NCBI GenBank assembly: GCA_016873095.1
Contig: VGYC01000046.1
Location: 1 to 43,049, forward strand
Length of the DNA: 43,049 nucleotides
DNA from: Planctomycetota bacterium
Lineage (GTDB): Bacteria > Planctomycetota > Planctomycetia > Gemmatales > Gemmataceae
Direction of reading: 5' to 3'
Both the position numbers and the translations under genes were made by a program. Shown here piece after piece: positions 4,064 through 13,935 of this stretch. The notes below the pieces were generated by a model that did no database searches, had not been told where the DNA came from, and saw nothing but the letters and a program-made list of their open reading frames with translations. Position 1 is the first letter of the stretch. Each line of letters starts with the position of its first letter.

Positions 4064-6088
4064 ATGCCAAGTGCGGGCGTTGACAATCCAGATGCGGGCG
4101 TGACCCAGACTCTTCATCTGATGGAGGAGATGAGTGGGTATCTGGAATCGGCCGAGAATCCCGGCGACTTCTATCAGGACTTCCTGACCAGGCTGCTGGC
4201 AGCGACGGGCGGCCTGAGCGGCGCCCTGTGGGAGCGAACGCCTCAAGGCGGCTTTGAGCTTCAGGCGCAAATCCATCTCGCCGAGTTCGGGCTGGATGAG
4301 GTTCTGCGCGGCTGGGAAGGCCTGGCGGAGATCCTGCACAAGGCGGCCCAGAAAGGCAGACCGCTCTGGATCCCGGCGCGCGGCGATGCCGAAAGCGGTA
4401 GATCGAAGTCATCCGACACCAATCCAAGTTCTCACGCCCTTCTGCTCTGTCCTATCCTGGTCGACAAGCAGGCGGAAGGCCTGGTGGGAATCTGGCTACA
4501 GCCGAATTCAAGCCGGGAAGCTAGGGCCGGCATCGCGCGGCTGGCCATGAACTTCTCCGGCTTTGCCGCAGCATTCATTCACAAGACGCAATGGAAAGCG
4601 CTGGTCAAGCAGAAGCGACTCTGGGGGCAACTGGAGAGTTTCACACGCCAGATTCACGCCAGCCTGGATCCTCATACGGTGAGCCAGCTGGTGGCCAATG
4701 AGGGGCGTCGCTTGCTGGAATGCGACCAGGTTGGCGTCGCCCTGCGCTGGGGCAAGAAGACCAGCATGGAAGCGGTGAGCGGCAGCCTGGCCATCGATCA
4801 GCGCAGCCGGCTCGTTCAGGCCATGCAGGAGTTATGCGATGCCGTCATGACCTGGGGTGAAAAGCTCACCTACCAGGGCACGCGAGACGCTGCCCTGCCG
4901 CCGCGTGTCCTGCAAGGCCTGGATGACTATCTGGTCCACAGCCATTCGCGATTGCTGCTGGTTCTGCCCTTGCGAGTGCCCGGAGAGAAAGACAATGCCG
5001 GCTCTTGCGTCGCGGCACTGCTTGCCGAGTCACACGATCCAGCGGCGGCGGTGGATTCGCTGCAAAGTCGGCTCGACGTCCTGGCAGGCCACATCGCCAC
5101 GGCCATCGGCAACGCCGTGCATTTCCAGCAGCTGCCGCTGCGCTGGCTGACACGTCCGTTGCTCAAGCTCAAGCAAGGGATTTGCGCTCGCAAGGGAATC
5201 AAGACGGCGTTGCTGGCCGCGCTTGTCCTGCTCGTCGTCGGCCTTTTCTGGTTTGTCCAGGTGCCTTTGCGCATGGAAGCCCAGGGACAGCTGCTGCCCA
5301 GGCACCGGCAGATGGTATTCTCGCCGCTGAGCGGCAAGATCGTCGAGATCAAGGCACAGAATGGAGACGTGGTAGGAAAGGGTCAGGAGTTGCTGTTCCT
5401 GGAGGATCTGGAAACTCAGCTCCAGGTAGATCAGCTCGGACTGAAGATCAATCTGGCGGAAAAGCGCCTGGCGCTGTTGCACGAACAGCTCAACCGAAGG
5501 CTCAGCCCGGAAGAGCGCAACACGCTCACGTGGGAAAGGCTCAGCCAGGAATACGAGCTGCGCAAGGCTTTGGTGGAGCGCGACATCGTCTTGCAGGGAA
5601 GCCGAAGCCCGCGACGGACGCCGGTGCTGGCACCCCTGGACGGCAAGGTCGTCACATTCGACGCCCAGGAGCAGCTTCTCGGCAAGCTCGTGAAGCCCAG
5701 CGATCCACTGCTTCGAGTGGTCCGCAGCAACGGTCCATGGGAAATCGAGCTGCAGATTCCCGAAGGCAGCATCGCCGCCATCCGCGAGGCCCTCGAGTCC
5801 TCGGCACAGGGCTTCCTGACCGTGGACTTGCTGCTGGCCAGTCAACCGCATCGAACCTATCAGGGCCGGCTCTATCGTGAAGGTCTCGGAGGCGAGACCA
5901 GCGTCAAGGAGAACGCCGTGGTCCTGCCGGCGCGAGCCCAGATCGCCAGCACGGACCTCATCGCGCAACTGAAAAACCTGCCCGTCGGCGTCGAGGTTCG
6001 CGCCAAGGTCAATTGCGGTCCGCAGGCGCTGGGTTACGTGCTGTTTTACGAGCTCTGGGAGTTCATCTACGAACGACTGATTTTCTGA
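4064..6088 (+). CDS. GAF-domain membrane protein with HlyD-type adaptor domain
   Basis: 674 residues from ATG 4064 (AGGGG ten bases upstream; an in-frame TTG at 4040 is possible). The first ~360 residues are cytoplasmic and look like two GAF-like sensor modules joined by helices. One strong transmembrane segment follows (TALLAALVLLVVGLFWFV, about residues 380-400). The remainder is periplasmic: a lipoyl/biotinyl half-motif (LSGKIVEIKAQNGDVVGKGQ), a short coiled coil, the second half (APLDGKVVTFDAQEQLLGKL) and a beta-barrel region, the layout of HlyD/membrane-fusion adaptors. The architecture suggests a cytoplasmic sensor that controls or senses an exporter through the membrane. Immediately downstream are a HlyD-WD40 protein and a PqqD-M50 protease, probably one transcription unit, although a strong hairpin follows the stop codon. 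Confidence 0.85.
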   Translation: MPSAGVDNPDAGVTQTLHLMEEMSGYLESAENPGDFYQDFLTRLLAATGGLSGALWERTPQGGFELQAQIHLAEFGLDEVLRGWEGLAEILHKAAQKGRPLWIPARGDAESGRSKSSDTNPSSHALLLCPILVDKQAEGLVGIWLQPNSSREARAGIARLAMNFSGFAAAFIHKTQWKALVKQKRLWGQLESFTRQIHASLDPHTVSQLVANEGRRLLECDQVGVALRWGKKTSMEAVSGSLAIDQRSRLVQAMQELCDAVMTWGEKLTYQGTRDAALPPRVLQGLDDYLVHSHSRLLLVLPLRVPGEKDNAGSCVAALLAESHDPAAAVDSLQSRLDVLAGHIATAIGNAVHFQQLPLRWLTRPLLKLKQGICARKGIKTALLAALVLLVVGLFWFVQVPLRMEAQGQLLPRHRQMVFSPLSGKIVEIKAQNGDVVGKGQELLFLEDLETQLQVDQLGLKINLAEKRLALLHEQLNRRLSPEERNTLTWERLSQEYELRKALVERDIVLQGSRSPRRTPVLAPLDGKVVTFDAQEQLLGKLVKPSDPLLRVVRSNGPWEIELQIPEGSIAAIREALESSAQGFLTVDLLLASQPHRTYQGRLYREGLGGETSVKENAVVLPARAQIASTDLIAQLKNLPVGVEVRAKVNCGPQALGYVLFYELWEFIYERLIF

Positions 6089-6164
6089 GAGGCTGTCCGA
6101 AAAGGGGTCAGACCCCCTGCGTTTCGGGTTGGGCAAGGGGTCTGACCCCTTTTCGGACAGCCTC
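6089..6164 (+). repeat. Perfect 28-bp inverted repeat with 20-base loop
   Basis: Arms 6089-6116 and 6137-6164 are exact reverse complements, with loop 6117-6136. The inner part of each arm carries the AAAAGGGGTCAGACCCC / GGGGTCTGACCCCTTTT motif, which I recall as a dispersed palindrome often associated with REP-type or RAYT-mobilised repeats in many bacterial genomes. It begins on the base after the upstream stop codon. It could act as a processing or attenuation hairpin between the two HlyD genes; the descending arm carries TTTT internally but no terminal T-run follows, so a classical terminator is less likely. Confidence 0.85.
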
Positions 6165-6241
6165 TGAGACGTGGCAACTCCAGAATGGTTTCGGGGAACG
6201 CGTCCTGTTGCCGGATTTTAACTGGTGTGTTGGGGTGGAAG

Positions 6242-8320
6242 ATGCAACGTGCATTGCTGCTGGCGGCCGGTGGGCGGGTTTTCTGGGGCTTGCTGTTCTG
6301 GTGGAATCATTCAGGGAACAGCCAGGCCAATCAACCGGCCCTGTTTCCGGGTCCGTCGTCCGGCACGGAGAACGATAAAGCATCATCAAGCTTCACGCCC
6401 TCGGTTGCCACGTCATCCACTGCTGCGATGCCCAGGTACTCCGGGAATGACCAGGTCCTGTATGATCCGATCGTCGTGGCGCCGTGCCATTTGACTCCCG
6501 TCCAGGAGCAGGAAGTTTCGAGTCAAGTTGACGGCGTCTTTGCCGAGATCCTTGCCGGACTTGGGCAGCAGGTGAGCAAGGGGGAAATCCTCGGCCGGCT
6601 CGATGATCGCCAGGTGCGGGCCCAGGTGGACCTTCTGGAAATCAAGGCGACCAGCAAGGCTGCCGAGCTCATTGCCAAGGCCCAGTATGATGAGGCCAAC
6701 TCCAAGGTCCAGTTCGCCATCCGCGCCAATCAATCCGGCCTGAACTCGGTTCCCGAGCTGGAATACAAGGGCTACCTGTTCCAGCGCGAACGGTTCGCCC
6801 AGGAAGTGAAGAAGGCCCAGGAAGACCGGCAAGAGGCTCGCAAGGAGCTGGAGAAAACGCTGGTGCAGTTGCGACTGCACAAGATCGCCAGCGGGCTCAA
6901 GGGAGAGATTGTCAAGGTCTACAAGCAGCCAGGCGAGGCCGTCAAGCAGGCGGAGCCGCTGTTCCGGGTGGCCGACTACAACCGCCTGCGGATCGAGGGC
7001 CTCTGCAAGGTCCATCAGGCCGACCTGCTTCGAGTTGGCATGCGAGCCCTGCTGGAGCCCGAGATTCGCGGCGAACAGTTGACGGAACTCTCCGGACATA
7101 CCGGTGCGGTCACGTCGCTGGCCGTGCTCGAAAGCGGGCAACTGCTGGCTTCATCGAGCGAGGACCGTACCGTCATTCTCTGGCAATGGCCCCAGGGCAA
7201 GCGCCAGGCATTGCTGTCCCACCCCGCAGAAGTCAATGCTCTGGCCTGGTCGCCGATCAGCACGGCCAGGAATGGGGCCTGGTTGCTGTCCGGCTGCACG
7301 GATGGTCAGGGCAGGCTATGGTGGATTTCCTCAGCGGGCCATGGCGAGACGCCCTTGCCACTGGAACTCACGCATGAAGGCCCGATTCGCTGCGTGGCCT
7401 TCGATCGAACTGGAACGCTCTGTGCCACCGGTGGGGATGACAAGCGCATCGGCATCTGGGAAGTTGCGAGCCGCAAGCACCTTTACTGGCTGAGTCCGGA
7501 GGACGGGCCGGCCCACAATGGAGCGATCACCAGCCTGAACTTCACTCCCGACGGGCGGCTGGTCTCCGCGGGCCGAGATAACACTCTGAAGGTCTGGAGC
7601 CTGACTTCCAGCGGAGGCAAGCTGATCGGCCTCCGACCAGGCCGCACGGGCGAGGTGACACAGCTCGGCATCAGTCCCGACGGTAACGAGCTACTCTTTG
7701 ATCATGGAGAGGAACTGCGCATCCTGGACAGCAAGGATTTTGCCAATCGCGGTACGATCTGGAGCCGCCGGCAGGGACGCTTCCACGGCCTGGCCCAGTA
7801 CTCGCCAACCGGGAGGCTGATCCTGGCGTCGGCGAATAACGGCCGGCTGCAGTTGTGGAAGGTTCCCGCCAGCCCGGCAACGATCGCGTTCTTTCGCCAC
7901 GGCTATGCCCATGGACTCGATCGCGCCACGTTGCTGAATCTTGTGCCCAGCCCGGCCGGGCTCGCGAGCCCGGGGAACGCAGCGACGCCACGTCTGTGGA
8001 GCTTGCACGGGTTCGAGGTCCGCCATTATCTCGCCCCCGGAGTCTCGGTGACACAAAGCGCCGCCTTCGCTCCCGACGAACGCGTCTTCTTTTCCGTGGG
8101 GAGCGACAAGTTGATCCGCGCCTGGGCCATTCCGGCACCGGAACACTGGCAGCAGCCGCTCGAGGCCCAGATCACCTTTGTCGGCAGCCAGCTGGAACGT
8201 GGCACGTACATGGTGCGCATTCGTGCGGAGATGGACAACCCTCAGGAGCCGTCCCGACGGCTGCGCTCGGGAACCCAGGCCATCCTGCGCTTGTATCCGG
8301 AAACCAAGCCGAGCCCTTGA
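6242..8320 (+). CDS. HlyD-type periplasmic adaptor with inserted WD40 beta-propeller
   Basis: 692 residues from ATG 6242 (GGGGTGGA upstream; an ATG at 6185 in frame is possible). An N-terminal hydrophobic anchor (MQRALLLAAGGRVFWGLLFW) precedes a low-complexity linker, a lipoyl half-motif (~90-125), a charged coiled coil (~125-215), the second lipoyl half (GLKGEIVKVYKQPGEAVKQA) and the first strands of the adaptor beta-barrel (~245-275). At about residue 282 it switches to WD40 repeats (LSGHTGAVTSLAVLESGQLL, GGDDKRIGIWEV, SAGRDNTLKVWSL, VGSDKLIRAWAI) to about 635. The last ~54 residues (QITFVGSQLERGTYMVRIRA and on) look like the remaining adaptor beta-barrel strands. So the propeller appears inserted within the adaptor domain, not appended. 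Neighbours are the GAF-HlyD protein and the PqqD-M50 protease. The role is probably in an export complex; the substrate is unknown. Confidence 0.85.
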   Translation: MQRALLLAAGGRVFWGLLFWWNHSGNSQANQPALFPGPSSGTENDKASSSFTPSVATSSTAAMPRYSGNDQVLYDPIVVAPCHLTPVQEQEVSSQVDGVFAEILAGLGQQVSKGEILGRLDDRQVRAQVDLLEIKATSKAAELIAKAQYDEANSKVQFAIRANQSGLNSVPELEYKGYLFQRERFAQEVKKAQEDRQEARKELEKTLVQLRLHKIASGLKGEIVKVYKQPGEAVKQAEPLFRVADYNRLRIEGLCKVHQADLLRVGMRALLEPEIRGEQLTELSGHTGAVTSLAVLESGQLLASSSEDRTVILWQWPQGKRQALLSHPAEVNALAWSPISTARNGAWLLSGCTDGQGRLWWISSAGHGETPLPLELTHEGPIRCVAFDRTGTLCATGGDDKRIGIWEVASRKHLYWLSPEDGPAHNGAITSLNFTPDGRLVSAGRDNTLKVWSLTSSGGKLIGLRPGRTGEVTQLGISPDGNELLFDHGEELRILDSKDFANRGTIWSRRQGRFHGLAQYSPTGRLILASANNGRLQLWKVPASPATIAFFRHGYAHGLDRATLLNLVPSPAGLASPGNAATPRLWSLHGFEVRHYLAPGVSVTQSAAFAPDERVFFSVGSDKLIRAWAIPAPEHWQQPLEAQITFVGSQLERGTYMVRIRAEMDNPQEPSRRLRSGTQAILRLYPETKPSP

Positions 8321-8330
8321 GGAATCTGCC

Positions 8331-9023
8331 TTGGCCGACAAGAGCCATTCTCTGGACAGGCGAAAACAGGTCCGCGTCCGCCTGCGCGCCAGTCTGCTGA
8401 TCACGGCACAGACGGACTCCGTCTCCACGTACCATGTGGTGCACGACCCGATCAGTCGCCGCAACTTCCGCTGCGAGGACGACCAGCGTTTTGCGATGGG
8501 GCTGATGGACGGCAAGCACTCCCTGGACGAGATTCAGCGAGCTTACGAGGAGAAATACCGGCCCAGACGACTGTCCCTGGAGGAGCTGGAGGCGTTCGCT
8601 GCCCGTCTTCTGGAGGATGGGCTGGCCGAGAACGAGTCGCCGCTGGCCGGCCGGCTGGTGCTGGCCCGGGAGAAGAAGCGGCGCCGGCAGCAGCTCTGGC
8701 GCAACCTGTCCAGCGTGCTGTTCTTCCGCATCCCGCTCATCGATCCCGGTCCAGCGCTGGACCGATTCCAGGGACGCGCCCGTCTGCTGTGCAGTTACTG
8801 GTTCCTGGCGCTGAGCCTGATCGTCTGGCTGGGAGCGCTGCTGTTGCTGGCCGGCAACTGGAACGAGTTCATCGCTCGACTGCCCGGCTACCAGGAGTTT
8901 TTCAGCTTCCGCTTCCTTTTCTACTTCTGGCTGACGCTGGGCCTGGCCAAGATCTGCCACGAACTGGGTCATGCCCTGTGTTGCAAGGCCATGGGGGCAT
9001 CGTTGGCCAGGGCGATGCGCTGA
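8331..9023 (+). pseudogene. PqqD-like domain plus M50 metalloprotease, truncated after HELGH
   Basis: The TTG at 8331, preceded by GAGGA at seven bases, gives 230 residues. Residues ~20-100 resemble a PqqD-like winged-helix domain (YHVVHDPISRRNFRC, LMDGKHSLDEIQRAY). Two or more hydrophobic segments follow, then CHELGHALCCKAMGA, the HExxH zinc site of site-2-protease (M50) family membrane peptidases. Family members I know of go on for several hundred residues with the third zinc ligand, further membrane helices and often a HlyD-like domain. Here similarity stops within a few codons of HELGH (about 8996-9000) and the frame ends at 9023, leading into unrelated fragments. This is a 3'-truncated gene. 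In intact clusters such proteases sit beside HlyD adaptors, as here. Confidence 0.75.
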
Positions 9024-9212
9024 TCGCGGTCCAGGATCAGCACTCCGGGGCGGTGACAAAGCGCAAGTGAATGAAGCACCCAGTTCCCGCCAGTCACGGT
9101 GACGAACTGTGCGATATTCCAGTTCAAGGAGGGTTTTCCGCCGCTGTTACCGGTCACGGGCTTCTCGCGGTTCGGCTTTAGCCGTCGGGTAAAGGCCTGA
9201 CATTGTCATGTC

Positions 9213-9308
9213 AACTGGGGCATCTACGGCCAGCGCTTCAACGCGGCGGGCGTCGCCCAGGGCAGCGAGTTCCTCGTCAACACCGTGACTGCCGGCGCGC
9301 AAACCACC
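9213..9308 (+). pseudogene. Fragment of a secreted repeat protein (GIYGQRFNAAG-type repeat)
   Basis: Translation of 9213-9308 gives NWGIYGQRFNAAGVAQGSEF followed by LVNTVTAG. This is a single copy of the ~60-residue repeat found in very large secreted planctomycete and proteobacterial proteins (W-G-I-Y-x-Q-R-F-x-x-x-G). There is no start codon, no flanking repeat and no surrounding open frame of useful length, so it is an isolated scrap, presumably left by rearrangement. It abuts the cut end of the minus-strand fragment that follows. Confidence 0.6.
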
Positions 9309-9309
9309 T

Positions 9310-9595
9310 TGATCATTCTAGCAAGCCCGGCTTTTCGAATCTGATTTAGTAATGTCGCTTCCGACTCGACGCGGAAAAGTTGATCAGGGCTGGGAAGCGT
9401 CAACTGGACCTCGTCGTCGTTCTTCCACGGCCTTGGCAGCGGCAGTTCCTCGGTCGCCGGATCTAGTTTCTTGTCGGGCAGCATTCGTGTGGGCGTGGGA
9501 ACGCCCAGAACCGATTGACGTTGCGCCTCGCCGTTCTGAGGCCAGATGAAGTGGAGCAGCACTCCTAGGACCACGGCATGTGTATGAATGTTCAT
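9310..9595 (-). pseudogene. N-terminal fragment of a secreted hypothetical protein
   Basis: Reading leftwards from an ATG at 9595: MNIHTHAVVLGVLLHFIWPQ is a signal-peptide-like start ending near NGEAQ. It is followed by a proline-rich stretch and PSPDQLFRVESEATLLNQIR, a pattern I recall from the N-termini of planctomycete secreted hypotheticals. After about residue 90 (near 9320) the sequence stops looking protein-like and runs into the reverse complement of the repeat-protein scrap, so the gene is cut there. The open frame continues to 9224 only by chance. It faces away from the FHA/HD-GYP gene; the ~130 bases between them could hold a divergent promoter, but none was clear. Confidence 0.5.
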
Positions 9596-9725
9596 ATCGT
9601 GGCGCGAGGTAGATCGAAAAATGAGAAAATCGGGAATCAGCGTGGCGATCTTGATGCTATGCTTTTTTGTCGGCACGAGAGGCCTAACGGATTTACTGGA
9701 AATCAAGGATGCTGTGGCCACGCAC

Positions 9726-11282
9726 ATGAGCGACCCGTCAAAACAAGGAATCGGCCTAAAGTGTCTGGGACCTTCGATGGAGGGTTCCAGATGGTGCGTG
9801 GACCGTCGCTCGCGCATCGGCCGAATGGACAACTATGAGATCACCCTGGACCACGCGTCCGTTAGCCGTCACCACGCGGAGGTGCGTCTGACCAGTCAGG
9901 GATGGACGGTACGGGATCTGGGAAGCACCAACGGCACCTACTTGAATGGCGTTCGGCTTGGCCTGGCCGAGGAGCACCTCCGCAAGGGAGACGTCATCCA
10001 GGTTGGCGAAGTTGCCCTGATGGTAGAAAACTCGACTGCGCCAAAGAAGCTCGATTCCGATCCAGAACTGACGATTGTTGACAGCCTCCAGGACACGGAA
10101 GAGCATGATAGCTCTCTCGACAATTATCCTGTCCCAGCCCCGATCCCGCTGGCAACCCTGGTTCAAATCGGGCGGGATTTTCGTCGATTCGAAACCATGG
10201 CGAGCTTCCTGAACGCCATGCTCTGGCAAGTCGCGGAGTTCCTGGATATCGCATTCGGGGCCTTTGTGCTTCGCGATGGCCGCACGGGAGTTCTCGCCGT
10301 GCCCAGCACCTTCGAGGTGGAAGGTGACGCCAACCGCGATGACAACCAGTATCTCGGATGGGCGCGCTGGACACTTTCCCAGCAAGGGACGCTGCTCTGT
10401 CAGCGGCAAGCTCTTGCGTCACCGGGGCAGATGCAATCCATCATCTTGGCCAGGCTTCGTACACCATACCGCGAACTGGGCGTGCTAGTCCTGGGCAGAG
10501 GTCCTCAGCAGCCTGCCTTCGGCATGAAGGACTTGCAGTCGGCTCAGGCGTTAACCGTTTCCCTGTCACCCAGCATTGACAGTCTGGATTGCCTGCTGAA
10601 CAAGCAACATGAGATCATCATCAGTGTCTTGACGGCACTGACGCATATCGTGCAGATGAGGGAAGGCTCTGCCAGCGAGCAAACTACGGACTACGCGTTG
10701 CTCATCGCGGATGAGATGAAACTTGACGAGCTGAGCAAGTATCACTTGCAAATTGGCACTTCCTTGCGAGATCTGGGCCTGATCGGCATGCCGGATAGCT
10801 TGTTGCGCAAGCCGCACGCATTCACGCCCGCCGAATCGACGAGGATGCGCGAACATGTCTACCGAGGTGTCGCCCTGCTCGAATCGATCTCGCCACTGGC
10901 TCCCTTGATCTCGATCGTGCGTAGTCATCATGAACATTGGGACGGCAATGGCTATCCGGACCGGCTGGCAGGCGAGCAGATTCCGCTCCTGGGGCGGATC
11001 GTTGCCGTGGCAGATGCATTGAATGCTCTTCTCAGCGAACGCCCGTATCGTGACAAATTCTCCCTGAACGAAGCCATGAACTTGATCAGGAGCCGATCGG
11101 GTAGCCAGTTTGATCCGCAGTGCGTCCTTGCCTTGCAGCGGGCGATCCCACGGATCAAGGATCTGACCGAGCAGCGAGGCGCAACGTGCAGCACCTTGTC
11201 GCTGGATGCTCTGAGAAAGACGACCGAAGCCTTAATCCTCTCGCCCGATCTGGCGTCCGTCACCATGTCAAGTCAAGAATAG
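9726..11282 (+). CDS. FHA-GAF-HD-GYP domain signalling protein with degenerate HD site
   Basis: 518 residues from ATG 9726. Upstream in-frame ATGs at 9588 and 9621 exist, the latter with GAGGT, but the FHA fold begins right at GIGLKCLGPSMEGSRW, so 9726 fits the domain. FHA (~8-85) shows RSRIGR, DHASVSRHHAEV and DLGSTNGTYLNG, the phosphothreonine-binding set. A GAF-like region follows (~140-270). The C-terminal ~200 residues are HD-GYP-like: HHEHWDGNGYPDRLAGEQIP and the VAVADALNAL segment are intact, but the usual L-L-H-D-I-G-K is S-L-R-D-L-G-L and the first metal-ligand His is also absent (SEQTTDYALLIADE). This predicts loss of cyclic-di-GMP phosphodiesterase activity and use as a binding or scaffold domain. 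The next gene is convergent, 13 bases on. Confidence 0.85.
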   Translation: MSDPSKQGIGLKCLGPSMEGSRWCVDRRSRIGRMDNYEITLDHASVSRHHAEVRLTSQGWTVRDLGSTNGTYLNGVRLGLAEEHLRKGDVIQVGEVALMVENSTAPKKLDSDPELTIVDSLQDTEEHDSSLDNYPVPAPIPLATLVQIGRDFRRFETMASFLNAMLWQVAEFLDIAFGAFVLRDGRTGVLAVPSTFEVEGDANRDDNQYLGWARWTLSQQGTLLCQRQALASPGQMQSIILARLRTPYRELGVLVLGRGPQQPAFGMKDLQSAQALTVSLSPSIDSLDCLLNKQHEIIISVLTALTHIVQMREGSASEQTTDYALLIADEMKLDELSKYHLQIGTSLRDLGLIGMPDSLLRKPHAFTPAESTRMREHVYRGVALLESISPLAPLISIVRSHHEHWDGNGYPDRLAGEQIPLLGRIVAVADALNALLSERPYRDKFSLNEAMNLIRSRSGSQFDPQCVLALQRAIPRIKDLTEQRGATCSTLSLDALRKTTEALILSPDLASVTMSSQE

Positions 11283-11295
11283 TCCTGAGAGCATC

Positions 11296-13935
11296 TCAGT
11301 CGATGTAAAGAAAAACGGCTGAGTTCATGAGCGTGTGACACAAGGTCTTGAGCGAGCGCCGCCCTGCTTCGGACCTTGCCAGGTGTCTCGCCCATTCTTC
11401 ATTGAGCTTTACCAGCGCGCTCATGGCAATCCTCGATTCCTCGGGGTTCGGTGGCCGGCTCAATGCGATCAAGTAAGCCCGTTCCACCAGGCTGGGCGAA
11501 TGGCCAGCTGCTTCGCGAAGCACGCGGTCGGCGAAATGACCCGCCAGTTCGCGCACGGTCGTATCGTTCAGGAGATGCAGAGCTTGTGTAGCGACCAGCG
11601 ATTCCGGCCGCTGCACGCAGTTGGGATTCATCGAAGGCAGGTCGAAGCTCTCCAGCAGCGAAGGCGGATGCTTGCGGAGTTGCTGGACGTAAACGCTGCG
11701 TCGGCGCCCCGACTGTACCAGGCCGTCAGCGCGGACCTGCACCGGGTCGGCGGGGCCGAACTGGGCTCCGTCCAGCTTTCCTGCAAGCAGCAGCAGCGTG
11801 TCGCGCACCACCTCGGCCTCCATGCGCCGCAGCGGCATGCGCGACAACAGTCGGTTGGCCGGATCAAGCTTCTCGTGCAGCGCCGTGACGACGGACGATT
11901 GCCGGTAGGTCTGCGAGGTCATCATGAGCCGGTGCATGGCCTTCATGCTCCAGCCATGGCGGACGAATTCGCGGGCGAGCCAGTCGAGCAACGCGGGATG
12001 CGTGGGCGGTTGGCCGGTCTTGCCGAAGTTGTCCAGGCTGCGGACGATGCCCTGTCCAAAGTGGTGCTTCCACAGCCGGTTGACCATGACGCGGGCTGTC
12101 AGCGGCTGGTCAGGCCGCGTGAGCCAGCGAGCGAAGGCAAGCCGCCTGCCGGTTGATTTCGCCTCAGGCCAGGGCGGTTGGACTTCGAAGGGCGTCATGC
12201 CATCGGTCAGCACGGCCGGCACCCCTGCCCTGACCGGCTGCCCGGGGCTGTTGTAATCGCCGCGGCGATAGATGTAGGTCGGCGACGGCTCTCCGCGGTC
12301 CCAGAGGGCCATGATCCGTGGCTCTGGCTGCTTTCGACCGTCGCGCTCCCAGCGGCGTCGCTCGGTTGTGGTCACATGCGGCAGGTAGCGCTCGCCGCCG
12401 CCGGCACTGACGGCGCCGCCAAAAGAGCGAATCTCCGGCTTGAGCCAGTCGTGCTCGTCATAAGCGCCCTTGAAAATGTCCACCAGTCGGTAGTAATCGC
12501 GCTGCGGCAGCGGATCGAACTTGTGACTGTGGCAGCGCGCACATTTCAGCGTCAAGCCCATGACGCCTGAACCGAGTACGTCCAGAGAGTCGGCCATGAC
12601 ATCCAGACGGTCCGGGACGAAGCCCGTCAGATTTGCCCAGGTCGGATCCGGCGCCAGCCGCAGAAAGGCCGTGGCGACGAGGTTGTCCTCGATCTCCTGC
12701 GTGATCTCGGCAGCCCGTTCATAGTCGACGAGATCGTCGCCGGCGATCTGCTCCAGCAGGAAGCGATCATAGGGCTTGTCGGCGTTGAAAGAGCGAATGA
12801 CGTAATCGCGATAGCGCCAGGCGAAGGGCCGGGGCAAATGCTGCTCGCGCTTGCCCTCGCAGTCGGCGTAGCCGGCGACATCGAGCCAGTGCCGCCCCCA
12901 GCGTTCACCATAGCGAGGCGACGCCAGCAAGCGGTCGATGAGCCGCTCGTAGGCGTCGGGCCTCCGGTCCGCCAGGAAGGCATCGACCTCGGCGGGTTCG
13001 GGCGGCAGGCCGGTCAAGTCGAAGGACGCCCTCCGCAAGAGCGTGAGCCGATCCGCTTCCGGCGACAGGGCTAGCCGCTTTTCTTGGAGTTTTTGAAGGA
13101 TGAAGGCATCAATCGGATTGCGAATGAGATGGGCGGCGCCGACCCTGGGGATCGGGACAGCACGCGGCGGCTTGAATGCCCAGAAGTCGCGATCCTTGTT
13201 GTTGACGAGGGGATCGGCCGGTGTCCCGGCCACGTCGGGCTCATCGGCAATTTCCGGCGCCCCGAGGGCGATCCAGCGGGTCAGCTTGTTGATCTCGTCG
13301 GGTTCCATCGGCTTGACGGCCGCCGCGATCAGCCGTTTCCGCGGCGGCATGTCGCCGGCATGAATCCGCCTGAGGATGACACTGTCGTCCGGCTTGCCGG
13401 GAACCAGCGCCGGCCCGGATTTCCCACCCTGCAGGATGCTTGCACGCGTGCGCAAGTCGAGACCGCCTTCGCGTAACTGCCGGCCATGGCAGGCCACGCA
13501 GCGCAGATGAAGGATGGGCAGCACGTCGTGCTGTGAAACCGAAAGGGCCTTCGAGGCCGCGCCTCCGAACGATGCGCCGGCATCGATCCAGCGGCGGATG
13601 ATCTCGACTTCGCTTTTCGTCAAGGTCTTGTTCTCGCGTTTCGGAGGCATCAGCCCCTTGTGGATCAGTTCAAATAACTTGCTCTCGGCGGCTTTGCCAG
13701 GCACGATCACCGGCCCTGACTCGCTCCCTCTGCGAATTGCCTCGGGAGAATGGAGAGCCAACTCAGCTTTCTGCGTCTTGTTACCGTGACAGTGAGAGCA
13801 CTTCGCCAGGAGGATGGGGCGGACATGCGTCAAGTAAGATGGGACAGCGTCGGCCGGCCCACGATCGTCGGCCAGTGCGCGCGACATCGCCACGATGCAG
13901 CAAAGCGTACCGAAGACCGTGAGAGTCGTCTTCAT
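11296..13935 (-). CDS. Secreted PSCyt1-DUF1549-DUF1553 (PSCyt2/PSD1) cytochrome-like protein
   Basis: 879 residues with a signal peptide ([20 protein letters not shown], cut after ALA). Two N-terminal planctomycete cytochrome-c-like modules carry CSHCH (near 46) and CVACH (near 146), each followed by M-P-P motifs ([16 protein letters not shown]) typical of haem axial-ligand regions. A DUF1549 domain follows ([52 protein letters not shown], then [18 protein letters not shown]), and then DUF1553 to the end ([37 protein letters not shown]). The molecular function of the family is not established; carbohydrate- or sulfatase-linked periplasmic roles are guesses. It is the last gene of a four-gene minus-strand run, 22 bases after the NPCBM gene. 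Confidence 0.92.

Follow-up and report, generated by a model that had tools for sequence, protein, structure and literature searches.

A predicted WD40 propeller within the beta-barrel of a HlyD-type adaptor from a planctomycete SecA-like/M50/HlyD gene module

Among the closest described systems is the secondary locus of SecA_DEAD, HlyD, M50 and GAF-HlyD genes published by Kamneva, Poudel and Ward in 2015 (PMC4452313), whose text also places the SecA/M50/HlyD module in other phyla, has some of the SecA genes unlinked to the locus, and reports OEP genes in only some of the loci. Among the papers listed by searches of the main text of open-access articles, none describes a HlyD-WD40 adaptor, and in those papers that a term check found to contain both 'HlyD' and 'WD40' the two were named as separate proteins or domains. 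The text of the Tuwongella proteome paper deals with WD40 sigma factors and has no HlyD (PMC8567305). The Legionella Lit system was considered as a relative and rejected, being by its published description an ordinary, unrelated ABC system (PMC11559062). The parts of the fold and the module itself were already known; what we have not found in print is a complete propeller that, to judge from alignments and models, would sit in the barrel of a membrane fusion protein and be kept in one lineage of the module.

The stretch of DNA analysed here (the window) is 43,049 nucleotides long and comes from a planctomycete of the Gemmataceae (contig VGYC01000046.1 of assembly GCA_016873095.1). The gene of interest is the middle one of three, which encode in order a GAF-HlyD protein, the HlyD-WD40 protein and a PqqD-like/M50-HlyD protein (Table 1). 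It occupies one open frame of 711 amino acids (6185-8320), and in a sequence alignment its second ATG, at residue 20, is the better fit to the start of the paralogue in the same genome. Between the GAF-HlyD and HlyD-WD40 genes is an inverted repeat (6084-6169) with 37-nucleotide arms, 95% complementary, and a 12-nucleotide loop; its 20-base core has 15 copies in the genome, four of them as inverted pairs, making it a dispersed palindromic element.

Table 1. Features of the HlyD-WD40 gene and its two module neighbours, in window coordinates. Residues are counted from ATG 6185; a residue number of the AlphaFold2 model plus 80 gives the number in the open reading frame.
Feature	Coordinates	Strand	Basis or remark
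GAF-TM-HlyD protein, first gene of the module	4064..6088	+	Pfam, tree
HlyD-type periplasmic adaptor with internal WD40 propeller	6242..8320	+	frame open from ATG 6185; likely start ATG 6242
Weak N-terminal hydrophobic stretch, putative signal anchor	6242..6307	+	hydropathy
First barrel strand and first lipoyl half (residues 96-139)	6470..6601	+	model strands E16-59
Alpha-helical hairpin (residues 142-230)	6608..6874	+	model helices H62-150
Second lipoyl half and barrel strands b2-b3 (residues 233-292)	6881..7060	+	Pfam, model, profile
Seven-bladed WD40 propeller (residues 297-650) in the b3-b4 turn	7073..8134	+	Pfam, model, fold match
Strands b4-b6, which complete the adaptor's barrel (within residues 652-711)	8138..8317	+	alignment, model, profile
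Truncated PqqD-like/M50-HlyD gene	8331..9023	+	match to residues 8-226 of the 744-residue paralogue

Pfam places the HlyD domains of the window protein up to residue 295 (HlyD_D23 at residues 109-290, E=6.8e-9; HlyD_3 at residues 238-295, E=2.9e-9) and the WD40 repeats after it (E=2.6e-39; PF00400 at 132.4 bits against 27). The extent of the HlyD_D23 match, taken with the strands and helices of the predicted structure, gives a lipoyl domain in two halves that flank the alpha-hairpin; a preliminary description of this DNA had read lipoyl halves and a coiled coil that lead into the first barrel strands. Near the N-terminus no 19-residue stretch of the window protein exceeds 1.2 on the Kyte-Doolittle scale; the hydrophobic stretch is clear in the own-genome paralogue and, at a level of 1.4, is present in 36 of 44 insert-bearing proteins. 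By curated cut-offs the window protein falls short of membership in two adaptor subfamilies, namely RND_mfp (TIGR01730; 64.6 vs 94.9 bits) and the type I secretion HlyD family (TIGR01843; 23.8 vs 208.65 bits). An insert-less homologue, L113, scores 100 bits with the RND_mfp model and so lies above its cut-off.

An AlphaFold2 model of residues 81-711, built from 32 aligned sequences, has a mean pLDDT of 89.6 and a pTM of 0.80, with values below 50 at the N-terminus, in one propeller loop (ORF residues ~569-604) and in the final three residues. Along the chain the model passes from lipoyl domain to two-helix hairpin, back to lipoyl domain, on to barrel strands b1-b3, then through 27 propeller strands, and ends with b4-b6. 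The part from residue 297 to residue 650 superimposes on a 7-bladed designer protein with a Z of 38.7 and an rmsd of 1.8 A over 283 of 286 residues (VIA-align), which agrees with the earlier reading of the WD40 repeats as a propeller. Because the fold searches with the window model listed propeller chains, they were no test of the barrel, and the barrel was compared instead by way of L113, the predicted structure of which has a pLDDT of 91.4. This insert-less homologue aligns to AcrA, MacA, MexA and EmrA up to the C-terminal strand with Z of about 14-17, and is thus an adaptor of AcrA/MacA/EmrA type to its last strand; rmsd values run from 3.3 A upward and exceed 10 A for some chains, a spread that we put down to domains bending relative to one another. 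The turn from b3 to b4 falls between residues 238 and 244 of this homologue, and 366 residues separate the same two strands in the window model.

A profile HMM built solely from 64 insert-less homologues matched the window protein in two pieces, residues 80-300 at profile positions 49-272 and residues 656-709 at positions 271-324 (i-E 6.3e-7), and these pieces abut on the profile (272/271) and are colinear across the propeller. The first part was found in all 44 insert-bearing proteins, ending at profile position 252-295 (median 268.5); the second was found in 35 of the 44 at i-E < 10 and in 23 at < 0.01, starting at position 258-287 (median 269). When the tails alone were scored against the profile, 37 of 44 insert-bearing tails reached at least 0 bits, compared with 8 of 1000 unrelated tails (two of them above 15 bits) and 4 of 880 shuffled ones. 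One of the seven tails below the threshold is cut by a contig end; the others show barrel-like strands by eye, several with Pro-rich extensions behind. In an alignment of 19 insert-bearing and 15 insert-less rows, the insert-less adaptors are continuous across the point at which the WD40 domain enters and leaves.

It is therefore well supported, by these comparisons and the model, that a WD40 insert of about 355 residues would stand in for a turn of about five residues between barrel strands 3 and 4, and that the barrel would close around the insert, with the last ~54 residues as its second half. A tail that fails to pack with the barrel seems unlikely, because the profile match is colinear and the predicted strands correspond one-to-one. 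The preliminary description had set the propeller within the adaptor barrel rather than at its end, and had taken the final ~54 residues for the rest of a membrane-fusion-protein barrel; the alignment, the strand order of the model and the two-piece profile match bear out the first statement, and the profile position of the tail, with the count of tails against controls, the second. The gene module, its link to a second SecA, the single gain in one lineage and the truncated M50 partner go beyond that description.

Homologues with the WD40 insert and without it, which that description had asked for, were both found, and they occupy one and the same position in the conserved gene group. Genome contigs gave no match to a single-sequence scan. 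The loci of named genomes came from a scan with an M50 alignment, which is blind to the adaptor; the best 80 of 588 confirmed stretches were used, so that this set leans toward relatives of the genome's own M50 protein. Insert state was scored by a BLAST match to the window propeller at E<1e-8. By this measure the middle adaptor carries WD40 in 12 of the best 80 of 588 loci, lacks it in 62 and is unassignable in six, and none of the 12 middle adaptors (nine of them from outside the class) in a further 20 loci matched the window propeller.

An M50 tree of 108 rows, made by a quick method, has one change of insert state among 102 scored rows, with an SH-aLRT of 92 on the dividing branch, and a GAF-HlyD tree of 57 rows, the insert-less ones hand-picked, likewise has a single change (98). 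Rows for a further M50 tree were chosen by hand, 50 in all, and 11 loci of other classes served as its root. The insert-bearing rows in it, 19 in number, fall into a single clade (100/98) that is nested within the insert-less ones, and its sister is a group of six insert-less rows that includes named Isosphaeraceae (97/94); this tree carried warnings for four long outgroup branches, one pair of them joined, and for odd composition in four outgroup rows. A tree of the 44 propellers alone keeps the same three groups (f1, f2 and f5) apart and is congruent. Named Gemmataceae are interspersed with the rows of f1, f2 stands as a sister family within the order, and strain Pan216, which we take to belong to the Kolteriales (an order that the taxonomy lists through Kolteria), is a member of f5. 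One of the three f5 propellers scored slightly nearer another WD40 protein (112 vs 110 bits), and the similarity of the propellers by itself would leave a common origin of the f5 propeller with the others undecided. Since the insert-bearing loci form one clade nested among insert-less ones, the simplest history, which we consider well supported, is that the propeller would have been gained once, before f1, f2 and f5 parted.

After seven repeat loci (L054, L057-L060, L063 and L075) were dropped, 115 loci remained, and the 95 among them with all three genes assigned (40 with the insert and 55 without, the window included) all have the order GAF, adaptor, M50. To count as the middle gene, a gene had to share the strand of the M50 or GAF gene and lie no more than 2.5 kb from it, so that the shared strand is partly by construction and the order is not; 8 of 122 rows have no assigned middle gene. 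Outside the 95, the order differs in L193, L196 and L199, from other classes, where the adaptor comes before the GAF gene or after SecA, and the GAF gene is on the opposite strand in L179 and L201. The M50 motifs HExxH and NPxxxxDG are present in 110 of 111 M50 rows, the sole exception being the window remnant, and an M50 protein of this kind was detected at E<=1e-60 in 31 of 149 sampled genomes across the phylum. In L112 (6807-8919) a pair of adjacent insert-less middle adaptors is flanked by GAF-HlyD and M50-HlyD.

The genome of the window has two SecA frames, one of canonical size (1367 aa) and a short one of 790 aa on contig C145, with SecA_DEAD, PP_bind and P-loop domains and the motifs GEGKT and DEAD. 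At least two SecA_DEAD matches were obtained in 53 of 59 genomes, this one included. The short SecA shares a stretch with the module in L177 and L178; it is near the module in 7 of the best 80 of 588 loci, all insert-less, and in 7 of the further 20, every one of which belongs to a genome outside the class (in L199 the match is only at 4e-11). In the genome analysed here it is on neither the window contig nor L016 but on another contig, and it is absent from all insert-bearing stretches examined, many of which are short. No ABC, RND or MFS pump gene was seen as part of the module in the loci examined, and the 24 stretches of the genome that match OEP, the outer-membrane factor, are all on contigs other than that of the window.

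Neighbouring genes were clustered into families recurring at at least five other loci, a noisy procedure (antisense frames are grouped too) that was read by eye. The real recurring families are DUF3467, a 138-residue Gemmataceae-type protein and the short SecA; epimerase, acyltransferase and sulfatase frames also recur near the module, and an LptB-like ABC ATPase frame, at five other loci, was rejected as a module part for its mixed orientation. The DUF3467 protein (e.g. L166, 5194-5526) is found ahead of the GAF gene or behind the M50 gene at 30 loci, of which 27 are insert-less, none is insert-bearing and three are unscored. The 138-residue protein, which has no Pfam match, is upstream of GAF-HlyD (e.g. 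L083, 11642-12058) at 21 distinct Gemmataceae-type loci. The M50 and short SecA frames of L196, from another class (7847-12060), overlap by about 49 bases, counted from the first start codon.

We think it likely that the window protein serves a SecA-like/M50 export machine as an EmrA-like adaptor, with an acquired periplasmic docking platform. It would be the middle adaptor of a three-adaptor membrane module, paired with the second, short SecA-like ATPase, and would retain the layout seen in EmrA, which has a hairpin, a lipoyl domain and a six-stranded barrel but no membrane-proximal domain. A whole WD40 propeller would have replaced the b3-b4 turn in an ancestor of f1, f2 and f5, which are the Gemmataceae-type lineage and its relatives. 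By analogy with the families concerned, the adaptor would be anchored in the inner membrane and face the periplasm, the three HlyD proteins would form one ring or duct, and the SecA-like ATPase and M50 protease would feed and process a peptide or protein. On this view the propeller may project from the barrel, at the lipoyl-facing end if strand order alone is followed, and offer a docking surface to a partner or cargo of the machine. The structure and history of the split-barrel adaptor are well supported; we infer export by the module and docking by the propeller, and the periplasmic protein-binding disc within an exporter that the preliminary description envisaged would be of the same standing. 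Several observations count against this explanation: the second SecA is absent from the insert-bearing stretches, no pump gene was seen in the module, seven of 44 tails score below the profile threshold, one f5 propeller is slightly nearer another WD40, only 31 of 149 genomes have such an M50 protein and gene order varies outside the 95 loci; in the window copy, the M50 gene is truncated, the GAF-HlyD branch is long and the anchor is marginal.

The last of these observations concern the window copy in particular. An intact paralogous module (L016) lies on contig C65 of the same genome. In L016, radical SAM and metallophosphoesterase genes come directly behind the module (4462-6149). The window M50 gene ends after about 226 of 744 residues, reaching HELGH and a little beyond, and the missing remainder has no further match in its own assembly. 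Just behind the break, at 9150-9187, is a repeat of about 36 bases with 14 more copies in the genome at 89-96% identity, which may mark a rearrangement. On the GAF-HlyD tree, the window GAF-HlyD protein falls with sister family f2 (98) and has a long branch (1.42). Taken with the weak N-terminal anchor, the break and its missing remainder, the nearby dispersed repeat and the long branch would suit a decaying paralogue without function, the C65 copy alone being active. This alternative is a serious one, to which we give somewhat less than even weight, as the GAF-HlyD and HlyD-WD40 frames are full-length with all domains present, and these two intact proteins could use the M50 protein of the other copy; the state of the assembly, 95.5% complete in 548 contigs, also counts against it. 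From the truncated M50, the long branch and the marginal anchor, the window copy may be decaying or rewired; it is not the sole copy and probably not the main one, and may be an acquired or an old second copy, decaying or using the M50 of the other.

We also considered a misbinned contig. Another gene on the contig has matches, at 58%, only in two genomes of the same family out of 58 others (E<=1e-80), which fits this genome. The gene beside the module at 9588-11282 has its best matches in f2, at 37-41% identity, nearly tied with the best f1 match, and does not decide the question; it encodes an FHA-HD_5 (HD-GYP-like) protein and adjoins the truncated M50 gene.

The propeller may be structural instead, bracing neighbouring adaptors or filling the place of the missing membrane-proximal domain, with no binding of cargo or partner. 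The barrel is the last part of the insert-less adaptor, as it is of EmrA in its published description (PMC4158417), and similarity to the window protein is at least as high over the propeller as over the N-terminal adaptor (median 39% vs 34% in f2 and 32% vs 24% in f1, the propeller figures being raised by shared WD40 consensus letters), both of which are consistent with such a role. Insert-less modules are the usual form in the other sampled lineages, however, so that no brace is needed there, and the barrel end that strand order would assign to the insert is the lipoyl-facing and not the membrane-facing one. A purely structural propeller thus strikes us as rather improbable.

We judge it similarly doubtful that the module matures and exports a ribosomal peptide, with the PqqD-like domain binding the leader, M50 cutting it and the propeller acting as substrate receptor. 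The L016 M50 protein does resemble the daptide metalloprotease (E=1e-54) and the YydH/LiaK family (7e-14), a PqqD match at E<=0.01 was obtained for 9 of 16 M50 proteins, and a radical SAM gene follows the paralogous locus. The scores nevertheless fall below the curated cut-offs, with 186.2 bits for L016 and 41.5 for the window remnant against 300 for the daptide family (NF041824), 52 against 225 for YydH/LiaK, and 18.3 against 23.4 for PqqD in L016, and no radical SAM family was recognised among the neighbours recurring at at least five other loci. A false fusion of a WD40 gene with a HlyD gene by misassembly or frameshift, as 548 contigs and an estimated contamination of 3.3% might allow, is refuted by homologues and so has next to no probability: 44 proteins from many genomes share this architecture, with the insert at one and the same point, and the complete Pan216 chromosome (CP036279, L105) is among their sources.

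Periplasmic adaptors pack in tight rings, and one would hardly expect an exporter to gain a function through a folded domain of about 355 residues set in a barrel hairpin. A bolder reading, offered with little confidence, is of a pump-less SecA-driven exporter (no ABC, RND or MFS transporter) with a duct in the form of a mixed ring of three HlyD adaptors. One adaptor would bring cytoplasmic GAF sensors, one an intramembrane protease, and the third, in the Gemmataceae-type lineage, barrel-wall WD40 propellers as a periplasmic receptor crown. As the gene group persists in sister lineages that lack the insert, these offer a natural comparison of the module with and without it, which gives a handle on an uncharacterised SecA/M50/HlyD module of the Planctomycetia and some other planctomycete classes.

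Among known propellers, those of WDR5, RACK1 and 5yzv of Thermomonospora curvata are likewise seven-bladed and match the window propeller with Z of 37-39; these domains are not known to be inserted in a membrane-fusion-protein barrel. The locus of Kamneva and colleagues resembles ours in that the three gene types are neighbours, that an ABC transporter was not identified and that the genome has a short second SecA, but a term search of its main text finds no WD40, and the insert-bearing loci described here differ from it in having SecA outside the stretch and a propeller on the middle adaptor (PMC4452313). MacA, AcrA and MexA share the adaptor fold, the insert-less homologue aligning to AcrA 2f1m with Z 16.6 (3.3 A, 224 residues), to MacA 3fpp with Z 16.2 (5.7 A, 253 residues) and to MexA 1t5e with Z 15.8 (3.8 A, 213 residues). 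They differ from the window protein in having a membrane-proximal domain and known ABC or RND pumps and, as described, no internal propeller (PMC4158417). EmrA is alike in its hairpin, lipoyl domain and barrel and in having no membrane-proximal domain, and the insert-less homologue aligns to 8zar with Z 15.1 and an rmsd of 6.1 A over 267 residues, and to 4tko with Z 15.9 but an rmsd of 20.9. The EmrA barrel has a disordered loop of 21 residues (322-342) and, in the description of that structure, no folded insert (PMC4158417). Counting the residues behind it, this loop would belong to the next turn, b4-b5, rather than to the b3-b4 turn used here.
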